From Naasia sp. (lineage in GTDB: Bacteria; Actinomycetota; Actinomycetes; Actinomycetales; Microbacteriaceae): 64,000 nucleotides of DNA. The position numbers were made by a program, and so were the translations under genes. The stretch covers positions 1 through 64,000 of the forward strand of contig JAODAX010000045.1 in NCBI GenBank assembly GCA_025463675.1, in the 5' to 3' direction. Shown here in pieces: positions 38,216 through 58,367 of the stretch. Every line of letters begins with the position of its first letter. The first letter of the stretch is position 1. A model generated the notes under the pieces. The model was not told the origin of the DNA, searched no databases, and was given only the letters and a program-made list of their open reading frames with translations.

Positions 38216-39166
38216 ATGACAGCTGACGTCGGGGTCGCCCCGCTCCGCCGCACCGGCAAGCGCCGGTGGCGGTGGAATGTGGGCATGCTCGCGCTCCCGG
38301 TGGGCGCGTGGCTGGTGTTCTTCTTCATCGTCCCGTTCGGGCTGATCGCGTGGTACAGCTTCGGCGACAAACCGAGCCTCTACCAGACGCACTCGAACGA
38401 GATCCTGTCGCTCGACCGGTACTTCGATGCGCTGGATCCGACGTTCCTGGCGATCTTCGGCCGGACGCTGAACATCGCGGTGACCGGCACCGTGATCTGT
38501 CTGCTCGTCGCGTTCCCCATCGCGTACTGGATGGCCGTCAAGCTGCCCGCCCGGTTCCAGGGCCTCGTCCTCGGCCTCGTGCTGGTGCCGTACTGGACGA
38601 ACTTCCTGGTCCGGACGATCGGCTGGCGGATCACCCTCAGCCCCGAGTCGTTCCTCGCCGACATCTCCCGCAACCTGGGGTTCGGCACACCGGACTGGCT
38701 CTACACGTCAGGGGCGGTGCAGTTGGGCGTGGTCTACAACTACCTGCCGCTGATGATCCTGCCGCTGTACGTCGCGCTCGAGCGTCTCGACCACCGGTTG
38801 CTGGAGGCGAGCCGCGACCTGGGTGCCAGCGCCGGGGAGAGCTTCCGCCGGGTGACCGTGCCGCTCTCGCTGCCCGGGATCGGGGCCGGCCTGCTTCTGG
38901 TGTTCGTGCCGCTGATGGGCGACTACATCACCCCCGCGGTGCTCGGCGGCGCGTCCGGCAGCATGGTCGGCCAGATGGTCGCCTCGCAGTTCCAGACCGC
39001 GCAGAACTGGGCCCTCGGCTCGGCGATGGCGATCGTGCTGATGCTGGCGATCGCTCTGGCGGTGATCGTGTTCGGACTGATCTTCAAGGTGATCGGCGCA
39101 CTGATCGCCCGCTCCGAGCGGGTCACGGTGCTCGATGACGGCGTGGCAGAGGGGAGGACCGCATGA
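38216..39166 (+). CDS. potB: ABC transporter permease (PotB-like)
   Basis: Multi-TM protein with EAA loop (EASRDLGASAGESFRRVTVPLSLPGI). Confidence 0.85.
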   Translation: MTADVGVAPLRRTGKRRWRWNVGMLALPVGAWLVFFFIVPFGLIAWYSFGDKPSLYQTHSNEILSLDRYFDALDPTFLAIFGRTLNIAVTGTVICLLVAFPIAYWMAVKLPARFQGLVLGLVLVPYWTNFLVRTIGWRITLSPESFLADISRNLGFGTPDWLYTSGAVQLGVVYNYLPLMILPLYVALERLDHRLLEASRDLGASAGESFRRVTVPLSLPGIGAGLLLVFVPLMGDYITPAVLGGASGSMVGQMVASQFQTAQNWALGSAMAIVLMLAIALAVIVFGLIFKVIGALIARSERVTVLDDGVAEGRTA

Positions 39167-40095
39167 CCGCGGTCAGTGAGCGTCCGGCGACGGAGGCGGC
39201 ATCCGTCGACGAGTCGGTGTCCGGGCCCAAGAAGCGCCGCCATGTCGACATCGGCACCGTCCTGATCTCCATCTGGGGCGTCCTCGGCCTGCTGTTCCTG
39301 TTCTTCCCGGTCCTCGTGATCGTGGCGTACTCGTTCAACACCGGCCGGCAGCTGCAGAGCTGGCAGGGCTTCGGCTTCACGTCCTACGTCAACGCGTTCA
39401 ACAACCCGACGATCGTGTCAACCATCTACGTGTCGATCTACGTCGCCTTCTTCACGGCGATCGTCTCCGCGATCCTCGGCTCGCTGGCGGGCGTCGCGAT
39501 GGCGCGGTCGGGCCGGGCCTGGTGGATCCCGGCGTTCACGGCACTGCTCGGGCTCGTGCTGGTGACGCCGGAGATCGTCAACGCGGTGTCGCTGCTGCCC
39601 TGGTTCGTGGACCTCGGCACCACCTGGAACCTGCCGATCTTCAGCATCGGCGTGGTGCGGCTGATCGTCGCGCACTCGCTGTTCGCGTGTGCGGTCGTCA
39701 CGTTCATCGTGCGTGCGCGGATGGCGGGGATGAGCGCGTCGCTCGAGGAGGCGGCGGCCGACCTGGGCGCGCCGCCGATCCGGCGCTTCCTCGACATCAC
39801 CTTCCCGCTGATGCGGCCTGCGGTTATTTCGGGTGCACTGCTGTCCTTCACGCTGAGCCTCGACAACACGGTCATCTCGAGCTTCGTGTCGGTCGCCGGC
39901 TCCACGCCGTGGCCGGTCTACGTGTTCTCGTCGCTGCGCTCGTCGCTGCGACCGGAGATCGCCGCCGTGTCGACGCTCATGCTGCTGCTCACCCTCGCGG
40001 TGCTGGGGCTCGTGGCGTTCGTCCTGCTCCGCGCGCAGAAGCGGGTGGGCGGCGACGCTCCCGGTCTTGCGTCCACCCTCGCCGGCGGCAACTGA
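39163..40095 (+). CDS. potC: ABC transporter permease (PotC-like)
   Basis: Multi-TM protein with EAA loop (EEAAADLGAPPIRRFLDITFPLMRPAV). Confidence 0.85.
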   Translation: MTAVSERPATEAASVDESVSGPKKRRHVDIGTVLISIWGVLGLLFLFFPVLVIVAYSFNTGRQLQSWQGFGFTSYVNAFNNPTIVSTIYVSIYVAFFTAIVSAILGSLAGVAMARSGRAWWIPAFTALLGLVLVTPEIVNAVSLLPWFVDLGTTWNLPIFSIGVVRLIVAHSLFACAVVTFIVRARMAGMSASLEEAAADLGAPPIRRFLDITFPLMRPAVISGALLSFTLSLDNTVISSFVSVAGSTPWPVYVFSSLRSSLRPEIAAVSTLMLLLTLAVLGLVAFVLLRAQKRVGGDAPGLASTLAGGN

Positions 40096-40188
40096 CCCCG
40101 GAGGCTATCCCCGCGCCTCCTTCATGTGCACGTTGTCGCGGCGCGCCACCGTTCTCCGGGTGACACGGCGCTGCAACGTGCGCCTGGG

Positions 40189-41601
40189 TCAGGAATCGAA
40201 GCCGAGGCCCAGGCTGTCGAGGACCTTGAGCAGCGGGCCGCGCCGGCCCTCCCGGTGGTCGGCCCGGTCGAGGGCACGACGCGTGAGCTGGATGCCGATC
40301 GTCGCGGCCGGCTCCGGCGGGAACGGCAGCGGCGGACGGCGCACGAGCTCCAACTCGGTGCGCTGGGTCTGCTCCCCGGAGAGCAGGTCCAGCATCACGT
40401 CGCCGGCGAAACGCGTTGCCGCGACGCCGAGCCCGGTGAAGCCGGCCGCGTACGCGATCCGCCCGGCCGCTGCCGTGCCGAAGAACACGCAGAACCGCGT
40501 GCAGGTGTCGATGGCGCCCGCCCAGCGGTGGCTGAAGCGAATCCCCTCGAGCTGCGGGAACGTCGCGAGGAAGTGCGAGGCCAGGCTCTCGTACGTGTCG
40601 TGTCGGTCCTCGTAGCGTGAGCGGATCCGGCCACCGGGATGGTAGACGGCGTCGTAGCCGCCCCAGAGGATGCGGTTGTCGGCGCTGAGCCGGTAGTAGT
40701 GGAACTGGTTCGCGGCGTCGCTGATGCCTTCGCGGCCGCTCCAGCCGGTCGAGGCGAGCTGCGCGTCGGTGAGCGGCTCGGTCATCAGCACGTAGTCGTA
40801 TACCGGAACGGTCATCAGTCGAGCGCGCTTGAGCAGAGACGGGAACACGCCCGTGCCGAGTACGACGTGGCTCGCGGTGACACTGGAGGCCGGCGTGCGG
40901 ACGGTGACCCCGGTCGCGTGCGGCTCGATGGCGGTGACCCGCGAGTCCTCGTGGATGCGCACGCCGAGTTCGGTGGCAGCCCGCGCCAGCTCCCGGGCGA
41001 GCTTGCCCGGATGTACGAGCGCGGAGGTGCCGGGGGAGCGCAGGCCGGCGAGGTAGGTGGGGGAGCGGACGAGGCTCCGCAGGGTCGTGGTGTCGAGGAA
41101 TTGGCTCTCGCCGTCGGCCGCCTCGCGCAGCCACGGCACCTGGTGCGGTTCCGTCGCCACGGTGATTCCGCCGGTGCGCTCGAACTCGCAGTCCAGCCCG
41201 AGCTCGGCGACCGTGCGCTCGATGCCGTCGAGGTTCTCCCGGCCGAGGCGGTCGAGCACATCCATTTCGTCCGGCCACCGGGAGCGGCCGTTCTCCTCGC
41301 CGTGGGTGAGGCTCGCGTCGACGAAGCCGCCGTTGCGGCCGGACGCCGCCCAGCCGATGGTCCGCGCCTCGAGCAGGACCACGTCGCGCTCTGGATCGCG
41401 CTGCTTCGCGAGGACCGCCGTCCAGAGGCCGCTGTAGCCGCCGCCCACGATCACGAGGTCCGCGGTCGTGCCGCCGAACAGCGGCCGGTAGCCGGCCCCG
41501 TTCACCCCGTCCAGCCAGAAGACCCGGCGCGCGGAGCCCTCCAATGAGGCCGCGACCGCGGCGGGGGAAGGTGAGCTGCGCTCGAAGACCGTTGTGCCCA
41601 T
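40189..41601 (-). CDS. FAD-dependent oxidoreductase, DAO family (PuuB-like)
   Basis: DLVIVGGGYSGLWTAVLAKQRDPERDVVLLEARTIGWAASGRNGGF ... GFTGLGVAATRFAGDVMLDLL. Confidence 0.85.
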   Translation of the reverse strand: MGTTVFERSSPSPAAVAASLEGSARRVFWLDGVNGAGYRPLFGGTTADLVIVGGGYSGLWTAVLAKQRDPERDVVLLEARTIGWAASGRNGGFVDASLTHGEENGRSRWPDEMDVLDRLGRENLDGIERTVAELGLDCEFERTGGITVATEPHQVPWLREAADGESQFLDTTTLRSLVRSPTYLAGLRSPGTSALVHPGKLARELARAATELGVRIHEDSRVTAIEPHATGVTVRTPASSVTASHVVLGTGVFPSLLKRARLMTVPVYDYVLMTEPLTDAQLASTGWSGREGISDAANQFHYYRLSADNRILWGGYDAVYHPGGRIRSRYEDRHDTYESLASHFLATFPQLEGIRFSHRWAGAIDTCTRFCVFFGTAAAGRIAYAAGFTGLGVAATRFAGDVMLDLLSGEQTQRTELELVRRPPLPFPPEPAATIGIQLTRRALDRADHREGRRGPLLKVLDSLGLGFDS

Positions 41602-41647
41602 GATTTTCCGAGCGTAGCGAACCGCGCAGAGCCCGACCCCGCGCGGT

Positions 41648-42487
41648 TCAGCGGGAGCTGTCCAGCAGGGCGTCCTCTTCGTCGGCGTCGGAGCGCCGCC
41701 GGGCGCTGCGGGCGGCTCGCTTGGCGGCACGGGCCTGCTCGCCCGGATCATCGGCGTTCCGATGCCGCCGCTCCTCCCGGATCGCGAACGCGAGGCCGGC
41801 GAAGCCGATCAGCGCGAACGCGGCCCACTGGAAGGCGTAGGACAGGTGGGGGCCCTCGTCGATCGCCGGCCGGATCGCGGGGAGCGGCCGCGCCTGGGTG
41901 GGCTCGGGCGACTCGGTGTCGAGCAGACCGTACGCGTCGTAGAGCTCCTCGCCGGTGATCCGCTCCACCTCGGGCAGGTGGATCGAGGCGAGCACCCCGC
42001 TCTCGCTCGTCGAGCCGGCGACGTTCGGCTCGCCCGGCTTCAGGCGCACCACGATGCTCACCGTCCCCGCCGGCGCCGCGGGCACGTCGACGGGCGCGGC
42101 GGCCGTCTCACCGATCGGTAGCCAGCCCCGGTCGACGAGGAGGCGTCCACCGGCGTCGCTCAGGAACGGCACGAGCACCTCGAAACCGGGGATGCCGCCG
42201 CGGGGACGGTTGCGGACGAGCAGGGTGTCCTCGGTCGCGTATTCCCCGGTGAGCACCACGGGTGTCCACTTGTCGTCCTCGGCCATCGTGCCGTCGCCCC
42301 GCAGAACGTCGCCCAGGGGAACGGCGCGCGCGTCGTAGTTCGCCAGGATGCGGCCGAGCTCCGCGACCTTCTCGGCCCGCCGCGCCAACTGCCAGTTGGC
42401 GAGCCCCGCGCAGGCGATCGCGAACACGACGGCGAGGAGGAAATACCGCATCCAGCGCGCCGAGAGCAGGAAACGCCAGCGGCTCAC
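41648..42487 (-). CDS. SURF1 family protein
   Basis: ACAGLANWQLARRAEKVAEL ... LLVDRGWLPIG ... YAFQWAAFALIGF; GTG start. Confidence 0.9.
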   Translation of the reverse strand: MSRWRFLLSARWMRYFLLAVVFAIACAGLANWQLARRAEKVAELGRILANYDARAVPLGDVLRGDGTMAEDDKWTPVVLTGEYATEDTLLVRNRPRGGIPGFEVLVPFLSDAGGRLLVDRGWLPIGETAAAPVDVPAAPAGTVSIVVRLKPGEPNVAGSTSESGVLASIHLPEVERITGEELYDAYGLLDTESPEPTQARPLPAIRPAIDEGPHLSYAFQWAAFALIGFAGLAFAIREERRHRNADDPGEQARAAKRAARSARRRSDADEEDALLDSSR

Positions 42488-43794: not shown

Positions 43795-45309
43795 TCAGCG
43801 TCGCCGACGGTGCACCGACTGCGGCGTGAGATAGGCGTTCAAACCCTCGACACCGTACTCGACGCCGAGCCCCGAGTCGTGCCGGCCTCCGAACGGGGCG
43901 GAGTGATTCGAGGCGAAGAAATTGATGCCGATCGAACCGGTGTCGATTCGGCGTGCGACGCGGAATGCGGCGTCCTCGTCGTCGCCGAAGACGATGCCGC
44001 CGAGTCCGAACGGCGTGTCGTTGGCAAGCTCGACCGCCTCGTCGACGCCGTCGTAGCGAGTGATGCCGAGCACCGGACCGAAGATCTCCTCGCGGGCGAT
44101 GCGCATGTCCGCGGTCACGTCGACGAAGACCGTCGGCGAGACGTAGGAGCCGGAAGGAAATGGCGGCGGGACATCGCCGCCCACGATGGCTCGGGCTCCC
44201 TCGTCGAGTCCGGATCGGATGTAGTTCTGCACTATCCGCTTCTGCGCCTCGGACGCGACAGGGCCGAAGACCGTGTCGGGGTCGAGCGGGTCGCCTACTC
44301 GCGCCGCCGATACGGTCGCAGCGACCATCTCCACGACCTCGTCGTAGCGCTCCGACGGGGCGAGAAGGCGCGAGGCGGTGTAGCAGGTCTGGCCGCTGTT
44401 GCGCATACAGCTGCGCAACAGCACGGAACTCATCGCCGCGAGGTCGGTGTCCGGCAACACGATTGCGGCGGATTTGCCTCCCAGCTCCAACGTCACCGGC
44501 CGCAGGAGTCCGCCGCACGTAGCGGCGATGCGGCGGCCTACCGGCGTCGAACCCGTGAACGCCACCTTGTCGATGTCCGGGTGCCGGACGAGCGCATCCC
44601 CGGTCTCAGCCCCTCCGGTGACGACGTTGATCACGCCGTCCGGGATGCCGGCCTCGGAGGCCGCGTCGGCGATGAATCGGATGGACAGTGGCGTGGTCGG
44701 AGCGGGCTTGATGACGACGGTGCATCCCGCCATGAGGGCCGGCGCGAGCTTGACCAGGACCAGGTTGATGGGGAAGTTCCAGGGCGCGATCAGAGCGCAC
44801 ACGCCGACAGGGTCGAGTCGCACCACGCTCTCGCTGGCGGAGCCGTCCGCGAAGGGGCGGACGTCGAGGCGTTCCAGGTAGTCGGCGTAGCCGGCGAAGT
44901 GCCGCAGGATGGCTGCCCCGTTGCCGGCGGCACGGGAGGTCTCCGCGACGGGCGACCCGTTTTCGAGCGTGTTGGTCAGCGATAGTGCGTCCGCGCGGGC
45001 TTCCAACGCGTCAGCGAGGCGCAGGATCCGATTCGCCCGCTCTGACGGCGCCAGCGCACGCCAGCCGGGTAGCGCTGCGCGTGCGGCGCCAACCGCGGCA
45101 TCGATGTCCGCGGTCGAGGCGACCGGCGCGGCACCCCACGATTCTCCGGTCGCGGGGTCGACGACCTCGATCAGATCGGTGGACGATGCGGCACGCCACT
45201 GACCGTCGATGAAGAGATCCCCGACGCGCGTGTATGGCAGCCCGCGCGCCACGTCGTGGTGTGCGCGCGCGAAGGCGGAGTCGGCTGGCCGGGACGTGGG
45301 GAAGGTCAT
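43795..45309 (-). CDS. Aldehyde dehydrogenase family protein
   Basis: APWNFPINLVLVKLAPALMAGCTVVIKPAPTTP ... TLELGGKSAAIVLPD ... RNSGQTCYTASRLL. Confidence 0.94.
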   Translation of the reverse strand: MTFPTSRPADSAFARAHHDVARGLPYTRVGDLFIDGQWRAASSTDLIEVVDPATGESWGAAPVASTADIDAAVGAARAALPGWRALAPSERANRILRLADALEARADALSLTNTLENGSPVAETSRAAGNGAAILRHFAGYADYLERLDVRPFADGSASESVVRLDPVGVCALIAPWNFPINLVLVKLAPALMAGCTVVIKPAPTTPLSIRFIADAASEAGIPDGVINVVTGGAETGDALVRHPDIDKVAFTGSTPVGRRIAATCGGLLRPVTLELGGKSAAIVLPDTDLAAMSSVLLRSCMRNSGQTCYTASRLLAPSERYDEVVEMVAATVSAARVGDPLDPDTVFGPVASEAQKRIVQNYIRSGLDEGARAIVGGDVPPPFPSGSYVSPTVFVDVTADMRIAREEIFGPVLGITRYDGVDEAVELANDTPFGLGGIVFGDDEDAAFRVARRIDTGSIGINFFASNHSAPFGGRHDSGLGVEYGVEGLNAYLTPQSVHRRRR

Positions 45310-47330
45310 CGGGGCTCCTTCTCGGCGACGCCGGCACTTCGATCGAGTTCGATGCGGAACTGCGCGGCCCTGGCGGCGAACCAGGCGATCGACTCAGGTT
45401 TCGATACAGCACCGAGATTGACCGCCTGATCGAGCGAATGACCTGAGAAGAGCCGTTTCACCGGCACTTCCAATTTCTTGTTCGCATGGTGTGCGGGAAT
45501 TGCCGGAACGGCGACTATCTCGTCAGGGACGTGCCTCGTGCTCGTCTGCGCACGGATTACAGAGGCGATCCGAGCCGACAGTCCGTCGTCGAGCGTTGCT
45601 CCTTCCACAAGGTGGACGAAGAGCGGCATGTAGTAGGAGCCGCCCGGAAGCTCCACACCGATCACCAGAGCGTCGACGACCTCCGGAACGTGCCTCAGTG
45701 CGGCGTAGACATCAGCCGGGCCGATCCGCACGCCCTGCCGGTTCAGTGTCGCATCCGACCTGCCGTGCACGATGAACTCGCCGCGAGGGGTTTCGGTGAT
45801 CCAGTCGCCTTGGGTCCAGACACCGGGGAACCGGTCGAAATAGGTGGAACGGTGCTTCTCCCCGTCCGCATCGCCCCACAGGAAGAGCGGCATGGAGGGC
45901 ATCGGCCGACGGACGACGAGATCCCCGACCCCGCCGACCGTTCGGGTGCCGTCCTCACCCCAGCACTCCACGGCCACGCCGAGGAGCGGTCCCTGGAGCA
46001 GGCCCGCACGAACCGGCTCGAGGGGGTTCGAGCCGATGAACCCGCTGCAGATGTCGGTCCCTCCCGTGTCGGAGCCGAGGTGCACGTCCGCCTTCACGTC
46101 GCTATGCACCCACAGCCAGGTCGACACCGGCAATGGGGATCCGGTCGAGAGGATCGAGCGCAACGCAGTCAGGTCGAACAGGCTCCGGGGGCTGACCCCC
46201 GACTGTTCCACCTGTTGGAGGTAGGCGGCGCCGGTTCCGAACATGCTCGCTCGCGTCTGGGCAAGGATGTGGAATTGGCGGTCGGCGGCCCTGAAGGTGG
46301 GCGAACCGGCATATGTCACCACCGATGCGCCGGCTGCCATGTTGGAGACGAGGGTGTTCCACACCATCCAGCTGGTATTGGCGGCGACGTAGTAGAGATC
46401 TCCACGGCCCATATCCTGATTGAGACCGGTGCCCTTGACAGATTCGAGGAGAATGCCGCCGTGTCCGTGCACGATTCCCTTGGGCGCCCCCGTCGTGCCC
46501 GAGGAGAAGAGGACCCAGAGCGGATGGGCGAAGGGCACCCGCTCGAAGGTGGGCTCGACTCCGACGCGGAGGATCTCACCGAAGGAGGCTCGGGCACGGC
46601 TGGCGGTGTCCGACCCATACCGTTCTCCGACGCTTGCGGTGGCCTCCAGACCCGGCAGGCCCGCCTCGATCTCGCCGAGTCTCTCCGTCACGTCGAACGG
46701 CTTGCCGTTGTACACGTATTCCTCGACGGCTATCAGAATCCGCGGCTCCAGCTGGCGCAGGCGCCCGAGCGTCGCCGCCGCTGAGAGCTCGGGGGAGTTG
46801 AGTGTCCACACCGCGCTGATCGCTGCGGTCGCAAGGGGTCCGACGATCGCTTCCGGCACATTCGGCAGCACCGCTGCCACCCGGTCGCCCCGCTGGACGC
46901 CCCGCTCGCGGAGCCACAGTGCACAGGCGCCGACCATCTTCGCCAGCTCCGCCCAGGAGATCCCGCGTTCGACGTCATCCTCGGTAATCGCCAGAACGGC
47001 CGTCTCGTCCTGTAGACACGGATCGGACGCCGGGCGCAGCACATTTTCGGCGGAGTTCAGCCTCGCGTCGGGGAACCACACCGCTCCGGGCAGAGCTTCC
47101 ACCGCGAGGGCAGGGCCGTCCCATCCGTCGCCCAGCAGGTCGAAGTACTCAGTGACGGATACCCAGAACAGGGACAGATCCTCGACGGACCAGCGCCAGA
47201 GCTCGCGGTAGGAGCCGAGGTCAACACCGTGATGGTCCGGAACCCAGCGCATGAAGCCGATCACGCGCGAACCGGCCATGCCGGATTCGGTCGGCTCCCA
47301 CGTGACGGGAGCCGTCGACTCAACTGTCAC
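45306..47330 (-). CDS. Acetoacetate--CoA ligase-like acyl-CoA synthetase
   Basis: FMRWVPDHHGVDLGSYRELWRWSVEDLSLFW ... LFSSGTTGAPKGIVHGHGG; architecture of acetoacetyl-CoA synthetase. Confidence 0.88.
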   Translation of the reverse strand: MTVESTAPVTWEPTESGMAGSRVIGFMRWVPDHHGVDLGSYRELWRWSVEDLSLFWVSVTEYFDLLGDGWDGPALAVEALPGAVWFPDARLNSAENVLRPASDPCLQDETAVLAITEDDVERGISWAELAKMVGACALWLRERGVQRGDRVAAVLPNVPEAIVGPLATAAISAVWTLNSPELSAAATLGRLRQLEPRILIAVEEYVYNGKPFDVTERLGEIEAGLPGLEATASVGERYGSDTASRARASFGEILRVGVEPTFERVPFAHPLWVLFSSGTTGAPKGIVHGHGGILLESVKGTGLNQDMGRGDLYYVAANTSWMVWNTLVSNMAAGASVVTYAGSPTFRAADRQFHILAQTRASMFGTGAAYLQQVEQSGVSPRSLFDLTALRSILSTGSPLPVSTWLWVHSDVKADVHLGSDTGGTDICSGFIGSNPLEPVRAGLLQGPLLGVAVECWGEDGTRTVGGVGDLVVRRPMPSMPLFLWGDADGEKHRSTYFDRFPGVWTQGDWITETPRGEFIVHGRSDATLNRQGVRIGPADVYAALRHVPEVVDALVIGVELPGGSYYMPLFVHLVEGATLDDGLSARIASVIRAQTSTRHVPDEIVAVPAIPAHHANKKLEVPVKRLFSGHSLDQAVNLGAVSKPESIAWFAARAAQFRIELDRSAGVAEKEPR

Positions 47331-48864
47331 CGGAGGTCCTCGCCCGAGCGCCCTGCGATGCCGGGCGGACAAGACTGACTTCGTCCCCGCCGACCCTCAC
47401 CCGCAGGGAGGTCCAGTTCGGCAAGCGACCTGTTGCATCGAGGAAGTCTGCCGCCGTCCGCACGACCGTGCGCGGCTGCCATCGGGGCGCTGAAGCGGAA
47501 GAGCGGACGGACTCGAGCACGTCTTCGGCCATGACGAGGCGAAGGAGGAGTTCCTCCTCCTCGAGAGTGCGGCCGAGCCGCTTCGCGAAGTCGGTGTGCA
47601 GCTCGTCGAGGGTTCGCGGGTCACGGGTCTCCCGCAGTTCGCGCGTTCGTGGGAGCGAGTCCACCCTTTCGATGACCTCGGGCGCGATCGGTCCCAGGGG
47701 TTTCCCAAAATGCCCGAGCACGAATCGCACGACTTCGTCGGGCAGTCGGGAGTATCGCTCGTGTCCGCTCCGCTGTGACACCACGTTCATCAGCGCCTGA
47801 CTGCCGACGAACTGGCTGAACGGGGTCACCATGATCGGATACCCCAACTCCGCTCGCACCGTGCCCACCTCCTCGATGACAGCGGGCAACAGGTCGGTCA
47901 TCTTCAACTCCCCGAGCTGACGCTGGAGCGTGCCCATCATGCCTCCGGGCACCTGGTGCACGTGGGGGCGAACGTCGAACGGCATGACCGGACCGGGGGC
48001 CAGGCCCTGCTCACGGGCGAGCGCGTCGAGAACCGCGGTGGCGTCCCGCAGGGCGTCCCGATCGAGATTCGTCGAGATCCGTGCGGCGTCGAGATTCTGG
48101 AGCGTGGCCTCGAGCTGCGGCTGCGCCGTTCCGTTCGAAAGCGGTCCAATTCCGGTGTGCACGGCGTCCACCCCGAGTTCCACGGCGCGCTGATACACGA
48201 GTGGAGCTTCGCCGGTTGTGCAGTGCCCATGCAGTTCGAGCGGCTTGCCCACGACCGCTTCGCGCAACGCGCGAATGAGATCTGACGCGCGCTCCACCGT
48301 GAGCAGGCCACCTGGGTCTTTGAGGTAGACGGCATCGATGCTCGCGTCGGCAGCAAAGGCACTGGCGGCCTCCACGTATGCCCCGTCGGTGTGAACCGGA
48401 GACTCCGTGAAGGTGGTGGCAGCGACGACGATCTCGAAGCCCTCCTCCTTCGCCCAGCGAGCGACGGTCCTCGCCGAGGAGACATCGTTCATCGGATCCG
48501 CGATCTGGAGCCGGCGAAGACCGTGCCTGGCCATGAGGCGAAGCGACATGCGCATGACGGTCTCGGACGCGCGCTCCCAGGACATGAACCGCATCCCGGT
48601 GCTGATCGCGGACAGCGGGGTCCGCGGGGCGGCCACCCGTGCTCGGGAGATCCGCTCCCACGGGTCCTCGCCATGGGCTTTCGCTCCCATCAGCAGGTTC
48701 GTGGAGCTCGTGAAGTCGATGGCGGACAGGCCGACTCGGTCGATCGCCTCCAGTGCGGTTTCGGCCATCCCCGTCGTTATGCCGACCGCTCCCCACAGGG
48801 ACTGGTTGCCGTCGCGCAGACTGGTATCGACGAATCCCAACGATGCGGTGCATGCCTGTGCCAT
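47320..48864 (-). CDS. OadA/PycB-like biotin-dependent carboxyltransferase (HMGL-like + PYC_OADA), atypical
   Basis: FVDTSLRDGNQSLWGAV ... VYLKDPGGLLTVERASDLIRAL ... LELHGHCTTGEAP ... VHQVPGGMMGTLQRQLGE. Confidence 0.85.
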   Translation of the reverse strand: MAQACTASLGFVDTSLRDGNQSLWGAVGITTGMAETALEAIDRVGLSAIDFTSSTNLLMGAKAHGEDPWERISRARVAAPRTPLSAISTGMRFMSWERASETVMRMSLRLMARHGLRRLQIADPMNDVSSARTVARWAKEEGFEIVVAATTFTESPVHTDGAYVEAASAFAADASIDAVYLKDPGGLLTVERASDLIRALREAVVGKPLELHGHCTTGEAPLVYQRAVELGVDAVHTGIGPLSNGTAQPQLEATLQNLDAARISTNLDRDALRDATAVLDALAREQGLAPGPVMPFDVRPHVHQVPGGMMGTLQRQLGELKMTDLLPAVIEEVGTVRAELGYPIMVTPFSQFVGSQALMNVVSQRSGHERYSRLPDEVVRFVLGHFGKPLGPIAPEVIERVDSLPRTRELRETRDPRTLDELHTDFAKRLGRTLEEEELLLRLVMAEDVLESVRSSASAPRWQPRTVVRTAADFLDATGRLPNWTSLRVRVGGDEVSLVRPASQGARARTSGDS

Positions 48865-48865
48865 C

Positions 48866-50248
48866 TCAGCCTTCCTCTGCGACGCGGTCCCGCGCCTCCC
48901 ACATCTCACCGAACCACGTCGTCGTGACGGCGCCAGCGACGAAGTCAGCGTGGTCGAGGACTGCGTCGAAGACCGGCAAGGTGGTCGAGACGCCGTCGAC
49001 CCGCGTCCGTTGGACGGCCGAGCGCAGCGCAGCGACAGCGTGAGGCCGGTCCGACGCTCGCACGATCAGCTTCGCCATGAGGGAGTCGTAGAATGGCGGG
49101 ATTTCGTCCCCCGATTCGACGTGCGTGTCGACGCGGATCCCCGGGCCACGGGGAAAGTCGACGAGATGCAGGCGGCCAGGCGACGGCAGGAACCCACGTG
49201 CAGGGTCCTCGGCGTTGACACGCACCTCGATCGCGACAGCCGGCGGCACAGGATCCACATCGGGCAGCTCGGGATCTCTGCCCAAAGCGAGAAGCAGCTG
49301 CGCAGCGACAAGATCCACGCCGTAGGCCTCTTCCGTGACCGGGTGCTCCACCTGGATTCGGGCGTTCATCTCGAGGAAGACGATGTCCGAGCTCCGCGTG
49401 TCGATGAGGAACTCCACAGTGCCCGCCCCCCGGTATCCGAGCTCCCGGACGAGGGCACGCGACGAGTCGTGTAGCAGTCGGCGGCGCCCCTCGTCGATGG
49501 CGGGCGCGGGGCATTCCTCGATGAGCTTCTGATGGCGACGTTGCACCGAGCAGTCGCGATCGCCGAAGACCTGGACGCCACCCTTCCCGTCGCCGAACAC
49601 CTGGACCTCGACATGCCGCGCTGCGCCATAGAACCGCTCCGCATAGAGTGCGCCATTGCCGAACGCTGCCTGTGCTTCTGCTTCGGCTTCGCCGACCAGA
49701 GCCAGGAGTTCGTCTTCGTCGCGGGCGAGCCGGATACCGCGCCCCCCACCGCCGTACACCGCCTTGACCAGCAGCGGGAACCCGACTGATCGGCCACGCC
49801 GGATCACATCCTGGGCATCGGCGGCATCGGGCAGGGACTCCGCTCGCGCGACGGGCACGCCCGCCCGCACCGCCACCGCCCGCGCACTCGACTTGTCCCC
49901 GATGGCTCGCAGCGTCTCCGGCCGCGGTCCCGCGAACGCGATCCCTTCCTCCTCGAGCAGCTCACACAGACGAGGCTGCTCGCTCAGGAATCCATAGCCG
50001 GGATGCACCACGTCGGCACCGCTCTGAATGGCAGCCTGGGCGATCAGCTCGGGCACCAGGTAGGAGGCGTTGGCCGCGCTCGGCCCGATCACCACAGTCC
50101 GATCGGCCCGGCGAGCTGCGAGTGTCCTCCGGTCGGCGACGCTGACTCCGACGACGGCCTCCGCCCCGATTCGGTGGGCGGCCTCGACGATGCGGACCGC
50201 GATCTCCCCGCGGTTCGCGACGAATACGACCGGCCGTTCGGCGCTCAC
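48866..50248 (-). CDS. Biotin carboxylase subunit (AccC-like)
   Basis: VFVANRGEIAVRIVEAAHRIGAEAVVGVS ... VVHPGYGFLSEQP ... FLEMNARIQVEHPVTEE. Confidence 0.95.
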   Translation of the reverse strand: MSAERPVVFVANRGEIAVRIVEAAHRIGAEAVVGVSVADRRTLAARRADRTVVIGPSAANASYLVPELIAQAAIQSGADVVHPGYGFLSEQPRLCELLEEEGIAFAGPRPETLRAIGDKSSARAVAVRAGVPVARAESLPDAADAQDVIRRGRSVGFPLLVKAVYGGGGRGIRLARDEDELLALVGEAEAEAQAAFGNGALYAERFYGAARHVEVQVFGDGKGGVQVFGDRDCSVQRRHQKLIEECPAPAIDEGRRRLLHDSSRALVRELGYRGAGTVEFLIDTRSSDIVFLEMNARIQVEHPVTEEAYGVDLVAAQLLLALGRDPELPDVDPVPPAVAIEVRVNAEDPARGFLPSPGRLHLVDFPRGPGIRVDTHVESGDEIPPFYDSLMAKLIVRASDRPHAVAALRSAVQRTRVDGVSTTLPVFDAVLDHADFVAGAVTTTWFGEMWEARDRVAEEG

Positions 50249-50727
50249 AGCGCTTCGTCGATGTACGCCAGCGGTTGGCCGAACTCGACCGCCTGACCAT
50301 CGGCGACGGCGAACCCCAGCAGCCGGCCCGAGACGCCAGCCGTGACCGGATTCATCATCTTCATCATCTCTATGATTCCGATCGTTCGGTCGGCGTCCAC
50401 ATCGTCGCCTTCCACCGCGAAAGGGTCCGCACCGGGCGACGATGCACGGTAGAAGACTCCGATGATCGGGGCGGGAACGGGTGTGCCCGGCGACGGAAGG
50501 ACCGCGTCCGCGCCGGCTGCCACGGGTGCCGACGCACCGGCTGGCGAGGCTGCGGGACTCGGGACGGGACGTGACGCTTCCGGTCGCGAGCCCGTCAACG
50601 GGCCGCCCTTGGAGACTTCGACGGTGACGTCCCCGAACCGGATCGACGCCTCCGTAAGCTCGCCGTCGTCGAGCAGCGAGACCAGCCGAAGAATCTGGTC
50701 CCAGGTCACCGGCTCAGCGTCGCTCAC
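50245..50727 (-). CDS. Biotin carboxyl carrier protein
   Basis: C-terminal IIEMMKMMNPVTAGVSGRLLGFAVADGQAVEFGQPLAYID with MKM biotinylation site; GTG start. Confidence 0.92.
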   Translation of the reverse strand: MSDAEPVTWDQILRLVSLLDDGELTEASIRFGDVTVEVSKGGPLTGSRPEASRPVPSPAASPAGASAPVAAGADAVLPSPGTPVPAPIIGVFYRASSPGADPFAVEGDDVDADRTIGIIEMMKMMNPVTAGVSGRLLGFAVADGQAVEFGQPLAYIDEAL

Positions 50728-50840
50728 GGCTGCGGTCCCGCTGCATAACGCGCGTCGCGCAGTGCGATCGTCAGCTCGCGCACGACGACTGCCGAAACCA
50801 CGCGCACTCGCGTCGGTCTGGGGATGAATTCAATCGACAT
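50724..50840 (-). CDS. Small 38-aa ORF translationally coupled to the BCCP gene
   Basis: MSIEFIPRPTRVRVVSAVVVRELTIALRDARYAAGPQP*; gaggaa Shine-Dalgarno-like sequence upstream, GTGA overlap with the BCCP start. Confidence 0.55.
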   Translation of the reverse strand: MSIEFIPRPTRVRVVSAVVVRELTIALRDARYAAGPQP

Positions 50841-51087
50841 AGGTCGCTTCCTCGCGGAGTTGGGCGGCGATACATCGAGTGTGCACCGCCGCGACTTCGG
50901 AACCATGTGCGCGGATCCACTGAGTGGGGCCGATTTCATTCTGCGTATTCGACCGCCGCCCGTTCCCGGTCGGGGGGCCGAGTTCTCCGATTTCTCGATG
51001 CCGCCCAGTAGCGCAAGCCGCACAATCATCGGGGAGCCTCCGACACACTGTCTCACACGGGAAAACGCCTATCCGGAAGGTCTCGCA
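50841..51087. promoter_or_regulatory. Divergent promoter / probable IclR-regulator target region
   Basis: Intergenic region between divergent operons; contains an 11-bp palindrome ccactgagtgg (50917-50927) and the direct repeat ccgatttc (50930, 50987). Confidence 0.4.
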
Positions 51088-51996
51088 ATGGTCCGCACGC
51101 AGCTCAACAAGGGAACCGGCCCGCGCCTGGACCAGGTCAAGGGCATCATGTTCGACGTCGACGGGTGTCTTGTTCTCTCGAGCAAGGCGGGCGGCGAGGA
51201 CGGTCATCCACTGCCGGGCGCGATCGAGGTGATCCGTGAGTTGCGGTCGGCCGCGATGCCCTTCGTCGCGTTCACCAACGGCAGCTCCCGTACCCCCGAA
51301 GCGATTTCCGCAGAGCTGCGCAGCGTCGGACTGGATGTCCGGGAGGACGAGGTGTTGACGCCCGCCGTCGTCGCGGCGCGCGTGATGCTGGAGAGGCACC
51401 CGGGAGGGCGAGTGCTGGCCTTCGGCGGCGAGGGCATCACCGTGCCACTCCGCGACGCCGGCGTGGACGTCGTGGACCTTGACGCTGCGATGGCTGACGG
51501 TCCGGACGATGTCGCCGCCGTCGTGGTCGGCTGGGATTCGAGCTTCGGCCGGGCGAAGATACAGGTCGCTGCGGAGGCGCTGCTGGGCGGCGCCGCCTTC
51601 TACTGCACGTCGGCCGCTCCGGCGTTCGCGTCTCGCGGCCGGCTCAACGTAGGGGTGTCCGGGTTCATCGCGGCCGGGCTGCAGCACCTGTCGGGAACTC
51701 CATACGAACTGGTGGGGAAGCCCTCGGACGAGGCGATGGCGACGATCGCCCGCAAGCTGGGGGTGCACCCCAGCGAGGTGCTGGTCGTCGGCGACGACCT
51801 GATCCTCGAATGCAGCATGGCGGTGAGGCACGGTGCGCTCGCGGTCCTCGTGACCACGGGCATGACGGGCAGGGTGCAGGCCGAGGCCGCCGTCATCGAG
51901 AACCGACCTCATCGGATCATCGATTCGATGGATGAGTTCGCAACTATGCTCGCGCCCGTGATGGCGCTACGGAGTAAATTGGCGACGCGGAGGTGA
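51088..51996 (+). CDS. HAD-IIA family hydrolase (NagD-like phosphatase)
   Basis: GIMFDVDGCLVLSSK ... FTNGSSRTPEAISAEL ... LVGKPSDEAMATIARKLGVHPSEVLVVGDD. Confidence 0.9.
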   Translation: MVRTQLNKGTGPRLDQVKGIMFDVDGCLVLSSKAGGEDGHPLPGAIEVIRELRSAAMPFVAFTNGSSRTPEAISAELRSVGLDVREDEVLTPAVVAARVMLERHPGGRVLAFGGEGITVPLRDAGVDVVDLDAAMADGPDDVAAVVVGWDSSFGRAKIQVAAEALLGGAAFYCTSAAPAFASRGRLNVGVSGFIAAGLQHLSGTPYELVGKPSDEAMATIARKLGVHPSEVLVVGDDLILECSMAVRHGALAVLVTTGMTGRVQAEAAVIENRPHRIIDSMDEFATMLAPVMALRSKLATRR

Positions 51997-51997
51997 T

Positions 51998-52807
51998 GTG
52001 ACGGTGGCGGGCGGAAGCCTTGAGCAGGGTCGGTCAGTGACGTCGAAGGTCATCGGTCTGCTCGAGACCTTCGAGTCCGTCCCGGGCTCCCTCAGCCTCA
52101 CCGAGATCAGTGCCCTCAGCGGGATCCCGGCCTCCACCACACGCCGACTGGTGGGAGAGCTGGCCGCTTCCGGCTTGCTCGAACACACCACCGGTGGTCG
52201 CTACCAGGTCGGCATTCGGCTGTGGGAACTCGCGCAGAAGGCCGGTCGGCATCTGCGAGAAGCTGCCCGGCCGAAAATCCAGGACCTTGCGGCGATGACG
52301 AACCAGAGCGTCATGATCAGTGTGCGTCAGGGACGCGACTCGCTCGTGATCGAACGCGCGCATGGCGACCGGCAGCCGGCGAAGACCTCGAAGGTGGGTT
52401 CCCGGCTGCCCCTGCACACCTCGGCCGCGGGCAAGGTGTTGCTCGCCTTCGAAGCCGAATGGATCCGGCGCAGCTATCTGGCCGAGCCACTGCAGCGGTT
52501 GACGCAGGACACCCACGTCGATCGCGCCGGCCTGGAGCGCGAATTGGAGACCACCGCGCAGTCGGGCTACGCGCAGAGCCTGCACGAGGTGCGGGTGGGT
52601 GCCAGCGCCATCGCGGTGCCCATGTTCCACTCGGGGCAGATCGCGGCTGCAGTCTCACTCGTCACCCACTCGAGTCGGAACTCCCAGCTTAAGGGGTACC
52701 TTCCGGCGCTGCGTGCGACGTCCGCGGCCGTCGAGGGCGCGACACGCCACCTCTCCCGGGGCGTCCTTTTGGGCATCAGCCAAGATCTCACCTCCGCCGA
52801 GGTGTAG
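51998..52807 (+). CDS. IclR family transcriptional regulator
   Basis: N-terminal wHTH (LSLTEISALSGIPASTTRRLVGELAASGLLEH) and IclR effector domain (LHTSAAGKVLLAF). Confidence 0.94.
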   Translation: MTVAGGSLEQGRSVTSKVIGLLETFESVPGSLSLTEISALSGIPASTTRRLVGELAASGLLEHTTGGRYQVGIRLWELAQKAGRHLREAARPKIQDLAAMTNQSVMISVRQGRDSLVIERAHGDRQPAKTSKVGSRLPLHTSAAGKVLLAFEAEWIRRSYLAEPLQRLTQDTHVDRAGLERELETTAQSGYAQSLHEVRVGASAIAVPMFHSGQIAAAVSLVTHSSRNSQLKGYLPALRATSAAVEGATRHLSRGVLLGISQDLTSAEV

Positions 52808-52919: not shown

Positions 52920-54248
52920 GTGGCAGAGAATCGGACAACGAGCATGGGAATTCGAGGCCTCGACGATGCGACAGGTGGAGCAAGCGAGACGTCGGTCTGC
53001 ATTCTCCTGATCGGGACCGCGGACACCAAGCCGGACGAATTGCAGTTCATCCGCGAGCAGATAACCGCACTTGGACACCGCTGCATCCTCATGGACGTCG
53101 GCGTCAAAGGCGAGTGCCCAATCGAGGTCGACATATCGCGCCACGAGGTGATGGCGAAAGCCGGCTCTTCACTGCACGAGATCCTGCAGCTGAATCACGA
53201 GAATTCCGCCATGCAGGTGATGGCGTCCGGCGCGAGCGCATTGGCCAGCGAGTTGGCAGAGCAGGGTCGTATCGACGGCGTCCTCATCATCGGCGGAACG
53301 ATGGGCACCGACCTCGGCCTCGATGTGACCGCCGCGCTGCCATTCGGAATGGCGAAGGTTCTGCTGTCCACCGTGGCGTTCTCGCCCATCATTCCGGCCG
53401 ACCGGATCGCATCGGATCTCATGATGATCCTGTGGACCGGGGGGCTGTGGGGGCGCAACGAGGTCAGCGAATCTGTCATGCGTCAGGCAGCCGGCGCGGT
53501 GATCGGCGCCGCAGTCGCGAGCAAGAAGCGGGTGGCCGGACAGCGCCCGATCGTGGGTGTTTCATCACTCGGAACTTCCGGCCTCAGCTACATACCGCGC
53601 CTGTGGACCGAGCTGACTGACCGAGGGTACGACGTGGTCCTCTTCCACAGCGTCGGCCCGGGTGGCAGGTCCCTCGAGAACATGGCAGCGCAAGGGCGGT
53701 TGGCTGCTGTGCTCGACCTGTGCCTGATCGAACTGTCCAATCAGCACCTGGGCAGCGTCGTCCATTCAGGTTCCTCTCGGCTCGAGGCTGCCGGGAAGCA
53801 TGGCGTTCCGCAGATCATCGCCCCGGGGGCCATCGACGCCGTTGACTTCTGCACGTGGGCTCCCATGAGCACCGACCGCGCGGCGAGATTCCACGCGCAC
53901 AATCGACTCATCGGAAGCTCCGCCACCACCCCCAGCGAGAAGGTGAGCATTGCGGCGGCCATCGCCGAGAAGGTGAACCAGGCAACGGCGCCGACCTGTC
54001 TGATCATCCCGACAGGGGGAGTGAGCGAGTGGAGTCGCCCCGGGCAGCCCCTCCATGACGACGAAGGAATGGCAGCTTTCGTCGCGGCGATCCGTTCCCA
54101 CGTCGCGCCCCACGTCGAATACCGGGAGGTCGATGCGCACATCAACGACAGCCAGTTCATCGATGCGGTGATCGACAGGTTCGACACGTGGGTCGACGAG
54201 GGGAAGATCGCACGATCCGAGACGAGCGTCATGGAGCGGACCCGATGA
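52920..54248 (+). CDS. Tm-1-like ATP-binding domain protein (UPF0261 family)
   Basis: ILLIGTADTKPDELQFIREQITALGHRCILMDVGVKGE ... IIGGTMGTDLGLDVTAALPFGMAKVLLSTVAF ... IPTGGVSEWSRPGQPLHDDEG. Confidence 0.88.
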   Translation: MAENRTTSMGIRGLDDATGGASETSVCILLIGTADTKPDELQFIREQITALGHRCILMDVGVKGECPIEVDISRHEVMAKAGSSLHEILQLNHENSAMQVMASGASALASELAEQGRIDGVLIIGGTMGTDLGLDVTAALPFGMAKVLLSTVAFSPIIPADRIASDLMMILWTGGLWGRNEVSESVMRQAAGAVIGAAVASKKRVAGQRPIVGVSSLGTSGLSYIPRLWTELTDRGYDVVLFHSVGPGGRSLENMAAQGRLAAVLDLCLIELSNQHLGSVVHSGSSRLEAAGKHGVPQIIAPGAIDAVDFCTWAPMSTDRAARFHAHNRLIGSSATTPSEKVSIAAAIAEKVNQATAPTCLIIPTGGVSEWSRPGQPLHDDEGMAAFVAAIRSHVAPHVEYREVDAHINDSQFIDAVIDRFDTWVDEGKIARSETSVMERTR

Positions 54249-55579
54249 GCAGCGAACCGTGGAACACCGGCCGCCTGCTTGAGATCGACCATGCCCACGT
54301 CGTTCACCCCAACTATCCCTTCGGCAAGTCGGCTGAGGTGGTTCTCGTTCGCGGCGAGGGCATCCGTCTCTTCGACTCCGAGGGGAAGAGCTACATCGAT
54401 GGCCGATCGCAGCTGAACTGCGCAAACCTGGGCTACGGACATCCACGTCTGATTGAGGCCATGAAAGCGCAACTGGATGAATTGCAGTACGCCTCGATCT
54501 TCTACCAGTTCACCCATCCGCAGGTCGTATCCGCCGCCGAGCGAATCATCGCGAGCGCTCCGGCCGGTCTGAAGCACATACTCTTCACGTCCGGCGGCTC
54601 CGAAGCCGTCGAAAGCGCACTGACTATCGCGCGCCTGTATTGGTCGCGCGTCGGCCGAGCCCAGAAGACGAAGGTTCTCTCGCGGTATGACGGCTATCAC
54701 GGCGCAACCTCTGAGGCCTCCGCGGCGACCGGAATGGCTATGGGCGGGTTCGACGGGATGATCAATCGACCGGGACACGTCCACGCGCCGGCGGTGAACT
54801 ACTTTCGGTCCGGCAGAGGGATGCAGCCGGAAGAGTATGGGCGATTCGCGGCCCAGCAGCTGGTCGAGATCATCCAAGCGGAAGGGCCGGAGACCATCGC
54901 CGCCTTCATCGGTGAGCCGATCGTCGGCGCGGGAGGTCATGTGCCCCCGCCCCCCGGGTACTGGAGCGCGGTGCGAGAAATCTGTGATCGCTACGACATC
55001 CTGCTCATCCTTGACGAGGTGATGACAGGGTTCCATCGGACCGGACCGCGATTTGCCTCGGAACACTGGTCCGTCGCGCCCGACATTCTGGTCGTCGGCA
55101 AGGGGATCAACGGCAGTTACGCGCCGTGCGGCGCCACGATCTTCAGTGAGACGATCGGCCACGCTCTGGAGGGGGCGAAGCTCACCGGCTTCACGCACAC
55201 CGGTCATCCTCTCGCGATGGCGGCGGTGAATGCCACCCTCGATGCTCTCGAGCTTGACGGGATTCCCGAGAACGTCGCCGACATGAGCGGCATCCTGATG
55301 AACCGTCTGGAAAAGGAGTTCCTGCCATTGCCGAGGGTCGGCGCCGCCGAAGGGATGGGGCTGATGGTCACCCTGCAACTGGTTGCGGACAAGCAATCGC
55401 AGCAGCCGCTCGGCGATGAGGTCGTGCAGAAGGAAGTGGTGGCGGGCGCCCTACGACGAGGGCTCATCGTCCGCGCGCGGAATGGCCGTATCGCCCTATG
55501 CCCGCCGCTCATCGTCAGCGAAGCCGAGATCCACGAGATCCTCGACATCCTGCACCCGCTCGTAAAGAACCTCGACTAG
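54245..55579 (+). CDS. Class-III pyridoxal-phosphate aminotransferase (1)
   Basis: ILFTSGGSEAVESALTIARLYW ... LLILDEVMTGFHRTG ... VVGKGINGSYAPCGATIF. Confidence 0.94.
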   Translation: MSSEPWNTGRLLEIDHAHVVHPNYPFGKSAEVVLVRGEGIRLFDSEGKSYIDGRSQLNCANLGYGHPRLIEAMKAQLDELQYASIFYQFTHPQVVSAAERIIASAPAGLKHILFTSGGSEAVESALTIARLYWSRVGRAQKTKVLSRYDGYHGATSEASAATGMAMGGFDGMINRPGHVHAPAVNYFRSGRGMQPEEYGRFAAQQLVEIIQAEGPETIAAFIGEPIVGAGGHVPPPPGYWSAVREICDRYDILLILDEVMTGFHRTGPRFASEHWSVAPDILVVGKGINGSYAPCGATIFSETIGHALEGAKLTGFTHTGHPLAMAAVNATLDALELDGIPENVADMSGILMNRLEKEFLPLPRVGAAEGMGLMVTLQLVADKQSQQPLGDEVVQKEVVAGALRRGLIVRARNGRIALCPPLIVSEAEIHEILDILHPLVKNLD

Positions 55580-55612
55580 CAATTCCGAACTGCAGATTCA
55601 AAGGAGAATCCC

Positions 55613-57037
55613 TTGTCAGAGATCGTCGAGACGACGTCAGGCCAGCACCGATCGAAACTTCGCTCCAGCGCGATGGGCACGACCGGTCTCGTGGTCACGG
55701 TCGCGGCCACCGTCGGTGTGATGGCCGCGTTCATGGGGGCGGCGCCGATCGTCTTCATCATGTCGGGCGCCGGAGCAACAGGAACCTACCTTCTCTCAGG
55801 ACTCCTTTTCCTGATTTTCGCCGTGGGCTATCTGGCGATGAGCCGGAGGGCCGAAAGCGCGAGCGGCTTCGTCGCGTTCATCACCAAGGGGACAGGATCC
55901 CGGATCGGCGTCGCTGCCGCATACGTGACACTGCTCACCTACACCACGGTCCTCGCTGGCCTCTACGGCATCTACGCCATGTTCGCGCAGCAAGCAGCTC
56001 TCGAGCTGTTCGGTGTCGACGTGCCCTGGGGAGTGTGGGCGCTGGCCACGGTGGTCCTCTTGGGCGTTCTCTCTTTCAATCGCGTGGAGATCAGCACGCG
56101 GGTCATGGGCACCCTCGTCGTGCTCGCGGTAGCCGCAGTCCTTGTACTCGATGTCGCCATCCTGTTCAAAGATTTTGGCAGTCTGTCGCTCGCCGGGTTC
56201 TCTCCGGAGTTGGTGTTCGGCCCCGGGTTCGGCCCGGCCATGCTGTTCGCGCTCGGATCGTTCCTCGGCGTGGAGTCGACAGCCGTGTTCAGCGAGGAGG
56301 TGCGGAACCCACGGAAGACGATTCCTCGAGCCACCTACATCGCCATCGGTGTCATCGGCGGCTTCTACGTGCTCAGCACCTTTCTGGTGGGCAGCGCCGT
56401 CGGAGTCGACAAGATCATGACGGTGGCCAGCGAGAACCCGACGGGTTTCATCTTCGCCATCGCCAGCGACTATGTGGGCCCGCTGTGGGCGAGCGTCCTC
56501 AATGTTCTCGTCGTGACCAGCTTCTTCGCGGTCGTCCTCGGCTTCACGAACGTGATGAGCCGGTACCTCTTCGCGCTCGGCCGCGCAGGCATCCTGCCCC
56601 AACAGGTGGGGCGCAGTCACAAGAAGCACCAGTCGCCGCACATCGCCAGCGTGGTGACGGGGATCGCGATGCTCGTCATCCTCTTAATCTTCATCCTGAG
56701 CAACGCGGACCCGTTCGCGCACCTCTACACGTGGTTCCTGGCGATCGCAACGGTGGGCGTGCTCGCCCTGATGCTCGTGTGCTCGATCGCCGTGGTCATC
56801 TACTTCCGCAAGAACCCCGGCGATGAGGGACCGTGGCGCACGCTCATCGCGCCACTTCTCGCGACCCTCGGATTCGGTGCTGCGATCGTCGCCGTCGTTG
56901 CGAACTTCAACCTGTTCGCGGGAGATCAGGCTTCCGCGCAATGGCTGTGGGTGGCCGTGCCGCTCGTTGCCGCTGTGGGCCTCATCGTCGGTTCACAGGC
57001 GCGCTATCGGGGCCTCAACCTGGACAGCATCGGATGA
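55613..57037 (+). CDS. APC superfamily amino acid/amine permease
   Basis: ~12 hydrophobic segments; FALGSFLGVESTAVFSEEVRNPRKTIPRATYIAIGVIG is an APC signature; TTG start. Confidence 0.92.
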   Translation: MSEIVETTSGQHRSKLRSSAMGTTGLVVTVAATVGVMAAFMGAAPIVFIMSGAGATGTYLLSGLLFLIFAVGYLAMSRRAESASGFVAFITKGTGSRIGVAAAYVTLLTYTTVLAGLYGIYAMFAQQAALELFGVDVPWGVWALATVVLLGVLSFNRVEISTRVMGTLVVLAVAAVLVLDVAILFKDFGSLSLAGFSPELVFGPGFGPAMLFALGSFLGVESTAVFSEEVRNPRKTIPRATYIAIGVIGGFYVLSTFLVGSAVGVDKIMTVASENPTGFIFAIASDYVGPLWASVLNVLVVTSFFAVVLGFTNVMSRYLFALGRAGILPQQVGRSHKKHQSPHIASVVTGIAMLVILLIFILSNADPFAHLYTWFLAIATVGVLALMLVCSIAVVIYFRKNPGDEGPWRTLIAPLLATLGFGAAIVAVVANFNLFAGDQASAQWLWVAVPLVAAVGLIVGSQARYRGLNLDSIG

Positions 57038-57089
57038 TATTCGCGCCGCGCGCGAGGCCCGGCAAGCCGTCAGAGAGGAGGCCGGTGAA

Positions 57090-58367
57090 ATGAACGCATC
57101 AGGACCGAGCCAAGGGTCCGCGCTTCTGAGAAGCGAATTGGACAGGCGCCTTCCTACGGTCTCCCATGCCCGCGGCGTGTTCCTCTGGGATAGCGACGGG
57201 CGTCGATATCTGGACGCTGCGTCGGGGTCGATAGCGGCGGTCCTCGGTCACGCCCACCCGAAGGCCATCGATGCACTTCAGGCTCAGGCCGCAAAGGTCA
57301 GTCATGTCTATCGGGGCTCGTTCACGAGCGAACCCACCGAAGAGCTCGCTCGGATGCTGGTTCGACGTTCCCCCGCGCCGGTGCAGCGGGTGCAGTTCGC
57401 GAACAGCGGTTCGGAGGCGGTCGAGATTGCTGTGAAGATGGCGATTCAGTATTGGCAGGAGCGCGGTCGTCCCGAGAAGTGGAAGGTGATCAGCCGCCTT
57501 CACAGCTATCACGGGAACACGCTGGGTGCGCTGTCACTGTCCGGGCATGCCCGACGGTCCCGTTTCGAGAAGCTGCTGCATCCCTTTCCCATGGTCAAAG
57601 CCCCCGATCCATTCGATGTGACCGCTGTGGAGGACTTCGAACGGGCTCTCCTGGAGACGGGGGCCGATTCCGTCGCAGCGATCATCGTGGAACCGATCGT
57701 CGGCGCCTCCAACCCGGCGCTGGTGCCGCCGCCCGGATACCACGAGCGGCTCCGCGAGATCTGCGATGCTCACGACGTCCTGCTGATAGCCGACGAGGTG
57801 ATGAGCGGAATGCATCGCTCAGGGACGTTCCTCGCCATGGAGGAATCGACCGTCACGGCGGACATCACCACTCTGGGTAAGGGGCTGGGCGGCGGATACG
57901 TTCCGCTGTCCGCAATCCTCGTGTCGGAGCGAGTCGTGCAGGGCTTCGAGCGAGGGTCTCGGAAGCTGGAAACAGGCGGCCACACCTATGCGGCAAACCC
58001 CCTGGCGACAGCCGTCGGCGTCTCGGTGCTCGAGGCCATCGACGAAGGCGATCTGGGTCAGAACGCTGTCGATCGAGGGCAAGAACTGCTGCAGGGCCTG
58101 GCGCGACTGGAGGCCGCCCACCCGGTGGTGGAGTCGGCGCGTGGCCGCGGCCTGCTCTGCGGGCTGGTGCTGGACGATCGTCTAGTTTCCGATGCCGCGC
58201 GAGAGCTGGTCGACGCAGCCGCCGATGTCGGCTTGATGATCTATCTCGCCGGTGACGGTGAAATCAACGGTGTCCTGGTCGCCCCACCTCTAATCGTCGC
58301 GGCGGAGCACATTCAGGAGATCATCGTCCTATTGGACGCGGCCCTCTCGGCGATCGAATCCCGATGA
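57090..58367 (+). CDS. Class-III pyridoxal-phosphate aminotransferase (2)
   Basis: VQFANSGSEAVEIAVKMAIQYW ... LLIADEVMSGMHRSG ... TLGKGLGGGYVPLSAILV. Confidence 0.94.
   Translation: MNASGPSQGSALLRSELDRRLPTVSHARGVFLWDSDGRRYLDAASGSIAAVLGHAHPKAIDALQAQAAKVSHVYRGSFTSEPTEELARMLVRRSPAPVQRVQFANSGSEAVEIAVKMAIQYWQERGRPEKWKVISRLHSYHGNTLGALSLSGHARRSRFEKLLHPFPMVKAPDPFDVTAVEDFERALLETGADSVAAIIVEPIVGASNPALVPPPGYHERLREICDAHDVLLIADEVMSGMHRSGTFLAMEESTVTADITTLGKGLGGGYVPLSAILVSERVVQGFERGSRKLETGGHTYAANPLATAVGVSVLEAIDEGDLGQNAVDRGQELLQGLARLEAAHPVVESARGRGLLCGLVLDDRLVSDAARELVDAAADVGLMIYLAGDGEINGVLVAPPLIVAAEHIQEIIVLLDAALSAIESR

Follow-up and report, generated by a model that had tools for sequence, protein, structure and literature searches.

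Gene content of the cluster

The window (the whole stretch of 64,000 nucleotides that was analysed) carries on its reverse strand the genes of a three-subunit biotin-dependent enzyme: a BCCP, a biotin carboxylase (BC) and a carboxyltransferase (CT) (Table 1). The original prediction had described these as separate adjacent genes and this is confirmed: Pfam and NCBIfam models identify three reverse-strand ORFs with minimal spacing as BCCP, BC and a protein combining PYC_OADA and HMGL-like domains. The BCCP and BC genes overlap by 4 bp. The CT ORF extends to a GTG at position 48909 with an alternative start at the ATG at 48864; the ATG is more likely, because the protein of the sister genome starts there and the stop codon of BC is just upstream. 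The neighbouring gene encodes an acyl-CoA ligase, as predicted, whose score exceeds the curated acetoacetate-CoA ligase cut-offs; its ORF spans 45306-47372 and its exact start is uncertain. At the junction to the aldehyde dehydrogenase gene, stop and start codon overlap (ATGA) and both genes probably belong to one operon. No oadB-like gene was identified among the neighbours of the cluster, in agreement with the predicted lack of a membrane-bound OadB beside the CT.

Table 1 Features of the carboxylase cluster in the window; identities to hpe clusters refer to loci L023 and L006
Feature	Position	Strand	Evidence
Aldehyde dehydrogenase	43795-45309	-	PF00171
HpeE-type acetoacetate-CoA-ligase-like AMP-forming ligase	45306-47330	-	above NF002937 and TIGR01217 cut-offs; 62-64% identity to hpe-cluster ligase
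CT (HpeB/CT-type)	47320-48864	-	PF02436 and PF00682; 62% identity to hpe-cluster CTs, 72% to sister L003
BC	48866-50248	-	PF00289/PF02786/PF02785; 68-69% identity to hpe clusters
BCCP	50245-50727	-	PF00364; biotinyl motif EMMKMMN; 45-46% identity to hpe clusters
Divergent intergenic gap	50728-51087	.	HpeHI kinase pair at this spot in sister genome
HpeD-type HAD-IIA phosphatase, divergent	51088-51996	+	PF13344/PF13242; 54% identity to hpe-cluster HAD
IclR-family regulator (PcaR/PobR-like)	51998-52807	+	directly 3' of phosphatase; 66% identity over 97 aa to L101

The divergently encoded HAD-IIA phosphatase has an intact nucleophile motif (DVDGC), and the gene order HAD-IclR is common to the window and the sister genome. 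Two further loci lie in the window. Downstream of the IclR gene, a UPF0261 protein, a class III aminotransferase, an APC-type permease and a second class III aminotransferase are encoded in a row (52962-58367, forward strand), probably as a separate amine-use operon; the pair of UPF0261 and aminotransferase is found again at another locus (L161). At 39163-41751, a PotC/PotI-like ABC permease adjoins an FAD oxidoreductase of the amine-oxidising type, which suggests a locus for polyamine or amine uptake and oxidation.

Relation to the HpeCBA carboxylases

HpeCBA, AcvCDE and XccBCA form a characterised family of carboxylases; hpe was named in 2022 in work on Rhodococcus (PMC9618137). In R. rhodochrous GD02, 4-hydroxyacetophenone or acetovanillone is first phosphorylated by the kinase HpeHI. 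HpeCBA then carboxylates the resulting 4-phospho-acetophenones (PAP or PAV) with conversion of one ATP to ADP and does not use the unphosphorylated ketones. HpeD takes off the phosphate group, and the proposed roles of HpeE and HpeF are the formation and the cleavage, respectively, of a CoA ester (PMC9618137). Complete hpe clusters listed in the same study include those of Actinomadura macra NBRC 14102 (our L023) and of a Rhodococcus MAG; we took the latter to be L006, which comes from a MAG of this genus and shows the gene order in full.

In the phylogenetic tree of CT sequences, the window CT groups with L003 and L004 within a clade of 23 rows (support 100) that contains both L006 and L023, with nested sets supported by 99 and 100. 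This clade is apart from PYC, PycB, OadA and 5S, and the CT is thus not placed inside canonical PycB, the phylogenetic outcome that had been named as an argument against an unusual acceptor. The deepest branch of the CT family tree consists of L078 (Desulfotomaculum) and L070 (Chloroflexota); the CT genes there adjoin a UPF0261 gene and tandem kinase-like ORFs, respectively. The family is rare: of 393 genomes sampled from the family of the window's organism (own genome included), 15 encode a CT at E<=1e-100, and it was found in none of eight other genomes of the genus. A search of viral contigs gave no result.

Homologues to both HpeD and HpeE are present in the window cluster, and the same company is frequent elsewhere: among 80 related loci, the BCCP-BC-CT set is accompanied by a HAD phosphatase in 71 and by a ligase in 51; upstream, a split PEP-synthase-like pair is often found. 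The window enzyme is a further carboxylase of the HpeCBA family with an acceptor class that is already known. As the family has been characterised (PMC9618137), the acceptor can be predicted to be a phosphorylated aryl methyl ketone from among the lignin-type aromatics, and we consider it likely that BCCP, BC and CT form a three-subunit carboxylase of the HpeCBA clade that acts on an aryl methyl ketone, most likely 4-phosphorylated hydroxyacetophenone, within a HAD/ligase pathway. By analogy to the characterised relatives, BC would carboxylate the biotin on BCCP using ATP and bicarbonate, the carboxybiotin would swing over to the CT metal centre, and the CT would deprotonate and carboxylate the methyl group of the aryl ketone to an aryl-3-oxopropionate. 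The divergently encoded HAD enzyme would then strip off the phosphate and the ligase, resembling acetoacetyl-CoA synthetase (AACS), would make a CoA thioester that is cleaved later.

The similarity to the GD02 system thus includes the three-subunit biotin enzyme, the homologues of HAD phosphatase and AACS-like ligase and subunit identities of 45-69% to the hpe clusters of that study (PMC9618137). The window differs in that HpeHI was found neither in the cluster nor in the 69% complete genome, that no convincing HpeF was found there, that the phosphatase gene is divergent rather than downstream and that the gene after the ligase encodes an aldehyde dehydrogenase. AcvABCDEF of Sphingobium SYK-6 and XccBCA of Aromatoleum aromaticum EbN1 belong to the same family and follow the same pathway logic, but both systems carry kinase homologues (PMC9618137), while the window cluster has none. 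Because the kinase is missing, the cluster falls short of the definition of a complete Hpe pathway.

The nearest relative is a Leucobacter MAG (L003 and L101, one genome), in which HAD-IclR is divergent from KinA-KinB-BCCP; L101 ends inside BCCP, and BC-CT-ligase is on another contig (L003). The window has the Leucobacter layout minus KinA-KinB, with the starts of BCCP and HAD about 360 bp apart. No remnant of a kinase was detectable in the gap between BCCP and HAD, although these queries readily recover the kinase pair in L023. In the genome as a whole (a MAG of 122 contigs and 2.08 Mb, 69% complete), KinA was not found with single-sequence and profile searches and KinB not with a single-sequence search; given this incompleteness, the absence of the kinase is not proven. 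The search for the beta-ketoacyl-CoA hydrolase HpeF returned a weak match elsewhere in the same 69% complete genome (33% identity over 133 amino acids), and no intradiol dioxygenase of the usual lower pathway was found there with a search that works in controls.

It is possible, though less likely than not, that the pathway is decaying or truncated: either the kinase pair has been lost by deletion, leaving genes that no longer sustain growth on the ketone, or the kinase genes were skipped in the assembly. The kinase is absent exactly at the position that it occupies in the sister genome, and neither HpeF nor a ring-cleavage dioxygenase was found in the MAG; however, the five genes that remain are all intact, with conserved catalytic motifs and tight gene junctions, and in an incomplete genome the kinase may lie elsewhere, as it does in several relatives. 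Such decay is compatible with the assignment of the enzyme and is a rival to it only as regards a pathway that is still functional.

The acceptor site of the carboxyltransferase

All motifs reported for the CT were found: LKDPGG, LHGHCTTG and VHTGIGPLSNGT, as well as DTSLRDGNQS. This last motif had been predicted to be altered, which holds for the exchange of H to N, but not for the exchange of A to G: RDG is not distinctive, as PycB (5ks8) also has RDGHQS. Two deep-branching CT paralogues, in the genomes of L079 (L129) and L070 (L141), have RDGQQS and RDAQQS instead of RDGNQS or RDAHQS and branch between the Hpe clade and PYC/PycB.

Among 79 aligned CT relatives, N35, K197 and both metal-binding histidines are present in all and H251 in 78; the H to N change in RDGNQS and Glu225 in front of HxH are also found in all 79. 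Judged from this alignment, the altered motifs are features of the family and not chance. In the pyruvate carboxylase (PC) of Lactococcus, the metal-binding and catalytic residues are R533, D534, K703, H732, H734 and T867, and Arg606 contacts pyruvate (PMC9581989). The six metal-binding and catalytic residues are kept in 79/79 relatives, whereas the column of R606 is Thr in 77/79 (Thr104 in the window CT) and the column of Asn609 is Arg in 79/79, including the window CT. The arginine of the FRVFD motif was considered as the pyruvate-binding residue and ruled out: counting from R533 to R606 in Lactococcus numbering leads to the LLRGxN motif.

The predicted structure of the CT (pLDDT 86) has TM scores of 0.73-0.78 to 5S, OadA, PycB and PC; on this model, the CT would share fold and chemistry with PC-type carboxyltransferases but use another acceptor. 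With PycB, OadA alpha and 5S (5ks8, 2nx9, 1rqb), the CT shares the fold, the metal site, the carbamylated Lys and the Thr of VTPxSQ, but it differs in the pyruvate-binding Arg and the neighbouring Asn, has only about 25-28% identity and lacks Na+ pump subunits. It scores far under the curated cut-offs of all PYC, PycB, OadA and 5S models, with 271 and 110 bits for the PYC/PycB NCBIfam models (cut-offs 402 and 1114) and 245 bits for the OadA equivalog (cut-off 756.5). A canonical pyruvate carboxylase of 1154 amino acids is encoded elsewhere in the same genome. The suspicion of an acceptor other than pyruvate is thus supported by the low scores, the separate clade, the exchanges of R606 to Thr and N609 to Arg and the presence of a separate canonical PYC.

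Carboxylation of a small aliphatic ketone, for example of acetone to acetoacetate that is then activated by the AACS-like ligase, would fit the score of the ligase above the acetoacetate-CoA ligase cut-offs, and the lack of a kinase in the cluster would allow for an acceptor that has no phenol OH. We nevertheless regard this as improbable: the nearest relatives are in hpe clusters that have the same ligase and an aryl ketone as acceptor, and the HAD phosphatase is retained with its nucleophile intact. In addition, the characterised acetone and acetophenone carboxylases (PMC5543143, PMC5214803), although they also carboxylate a methyl ketone at the cost of ATP, are biotin-free with unrelated subunits of the hydantoinase type, unlike the BC, BCCP and PYC_OADA domains in the window. 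Acetone carboxylation, an idea that had come from the AACS-like neighbour, was set aside in view of the published work on HpeCBA and the conserved context of HAD and kinase genes. A second carboxylase for pyruvate or another 2-oxo acid, a PycAB-type enzyme whose motifs have drifted, is highly improbable despite the shared fold and identical catalytic residues, as the pyruvate-binding Arg is replaced throughout the family, clade and scores set the CT apart, the genome already has an ordinary PYC, and oxaloacetate as product would leave the conserved HAD and AACS-like neighbours without a sensible role.

Clusters like the one described here would ordinarily be annotated as pyruvate carboxylase or oxaloacetate decarboxylase together with acetoacetate-CoA ligase. 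The signature of RDGNQS, Thr in place of the pyruvate-binding Arg and Arg three residues on separates the ketone carboxylases from the pyruvate carboxylases and can correct this annotation.

Clusters without the HpeHI kinase

In several relatives of the window cluster, HpeHI is absent and a UPF0261/Tm-1-like protein is encoded in or near the kinase position, for example in L142:3969-9354 (S. bisphenolicum pBAR1), L143:2632-11222 (P. putida YC-AE1), L081, L062 and L040. S. bisphenolicum AO1 and P. putida YC-AE1 both degrade bisphenol A, and on their plasmids the UPF0261 gene (L142:3969-5201 and L143:4880-6127) is directly before BCCP-BC-CT-HAD, which is the position of the kinase; P. putida YC-AE1 is reported to degrade 4-hydroxyacetophenone (PMC9733184). 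Of the loci of at least 12 kb, 14 have a UPF0261/Tm-1-like gene without a nearby kinase, all from Proteobacteria, 41 have a kinase without UPF0261 and one has both. The raw anti-association is strong (Fisher p ~2e-8), but it comes down to five independent pairs and is then not significant. In the 16 genomes with UPF0261-linked clusters, full-length KinA is absent from ten and encoded elsewhere in six. The hpe-linked proteobacterial UPF0261 proteins form one clade (100/100) within a family of Tm-1-like ATP-binding proteins without known enzymatic function, and our literature search found no paper that ties them to a kinase-replacing function. UPF0261 is a candidate for replacing the kinase in the proteobacterial relatives.

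The UPF0261 protein of the window (52962-54248) was rejected as the missing kinase: it is outside the hpe-linked clade and groups with unlinked paralogues. We do not propose it as kinase for this reason and because it is paired with an aminotransferase, as at the unlinked paralogue locus.

Speculative, and on balance unlikely, is that a subset of HpeCBA-type clusters works without HpeHI, with another protein making the phospho-ketone; in Proteobacteria the candidate would be the UPF0261 clade in the kinase slot, and the window may represent an independent, actinobacterial case that is solved in still another way. The kinase-less clusters raise the question of how the phenol is phosphorylated without HpeHI, above all in the degraders of bisphenol A, where the pathway leads to 4-hydroxyacetophenone.
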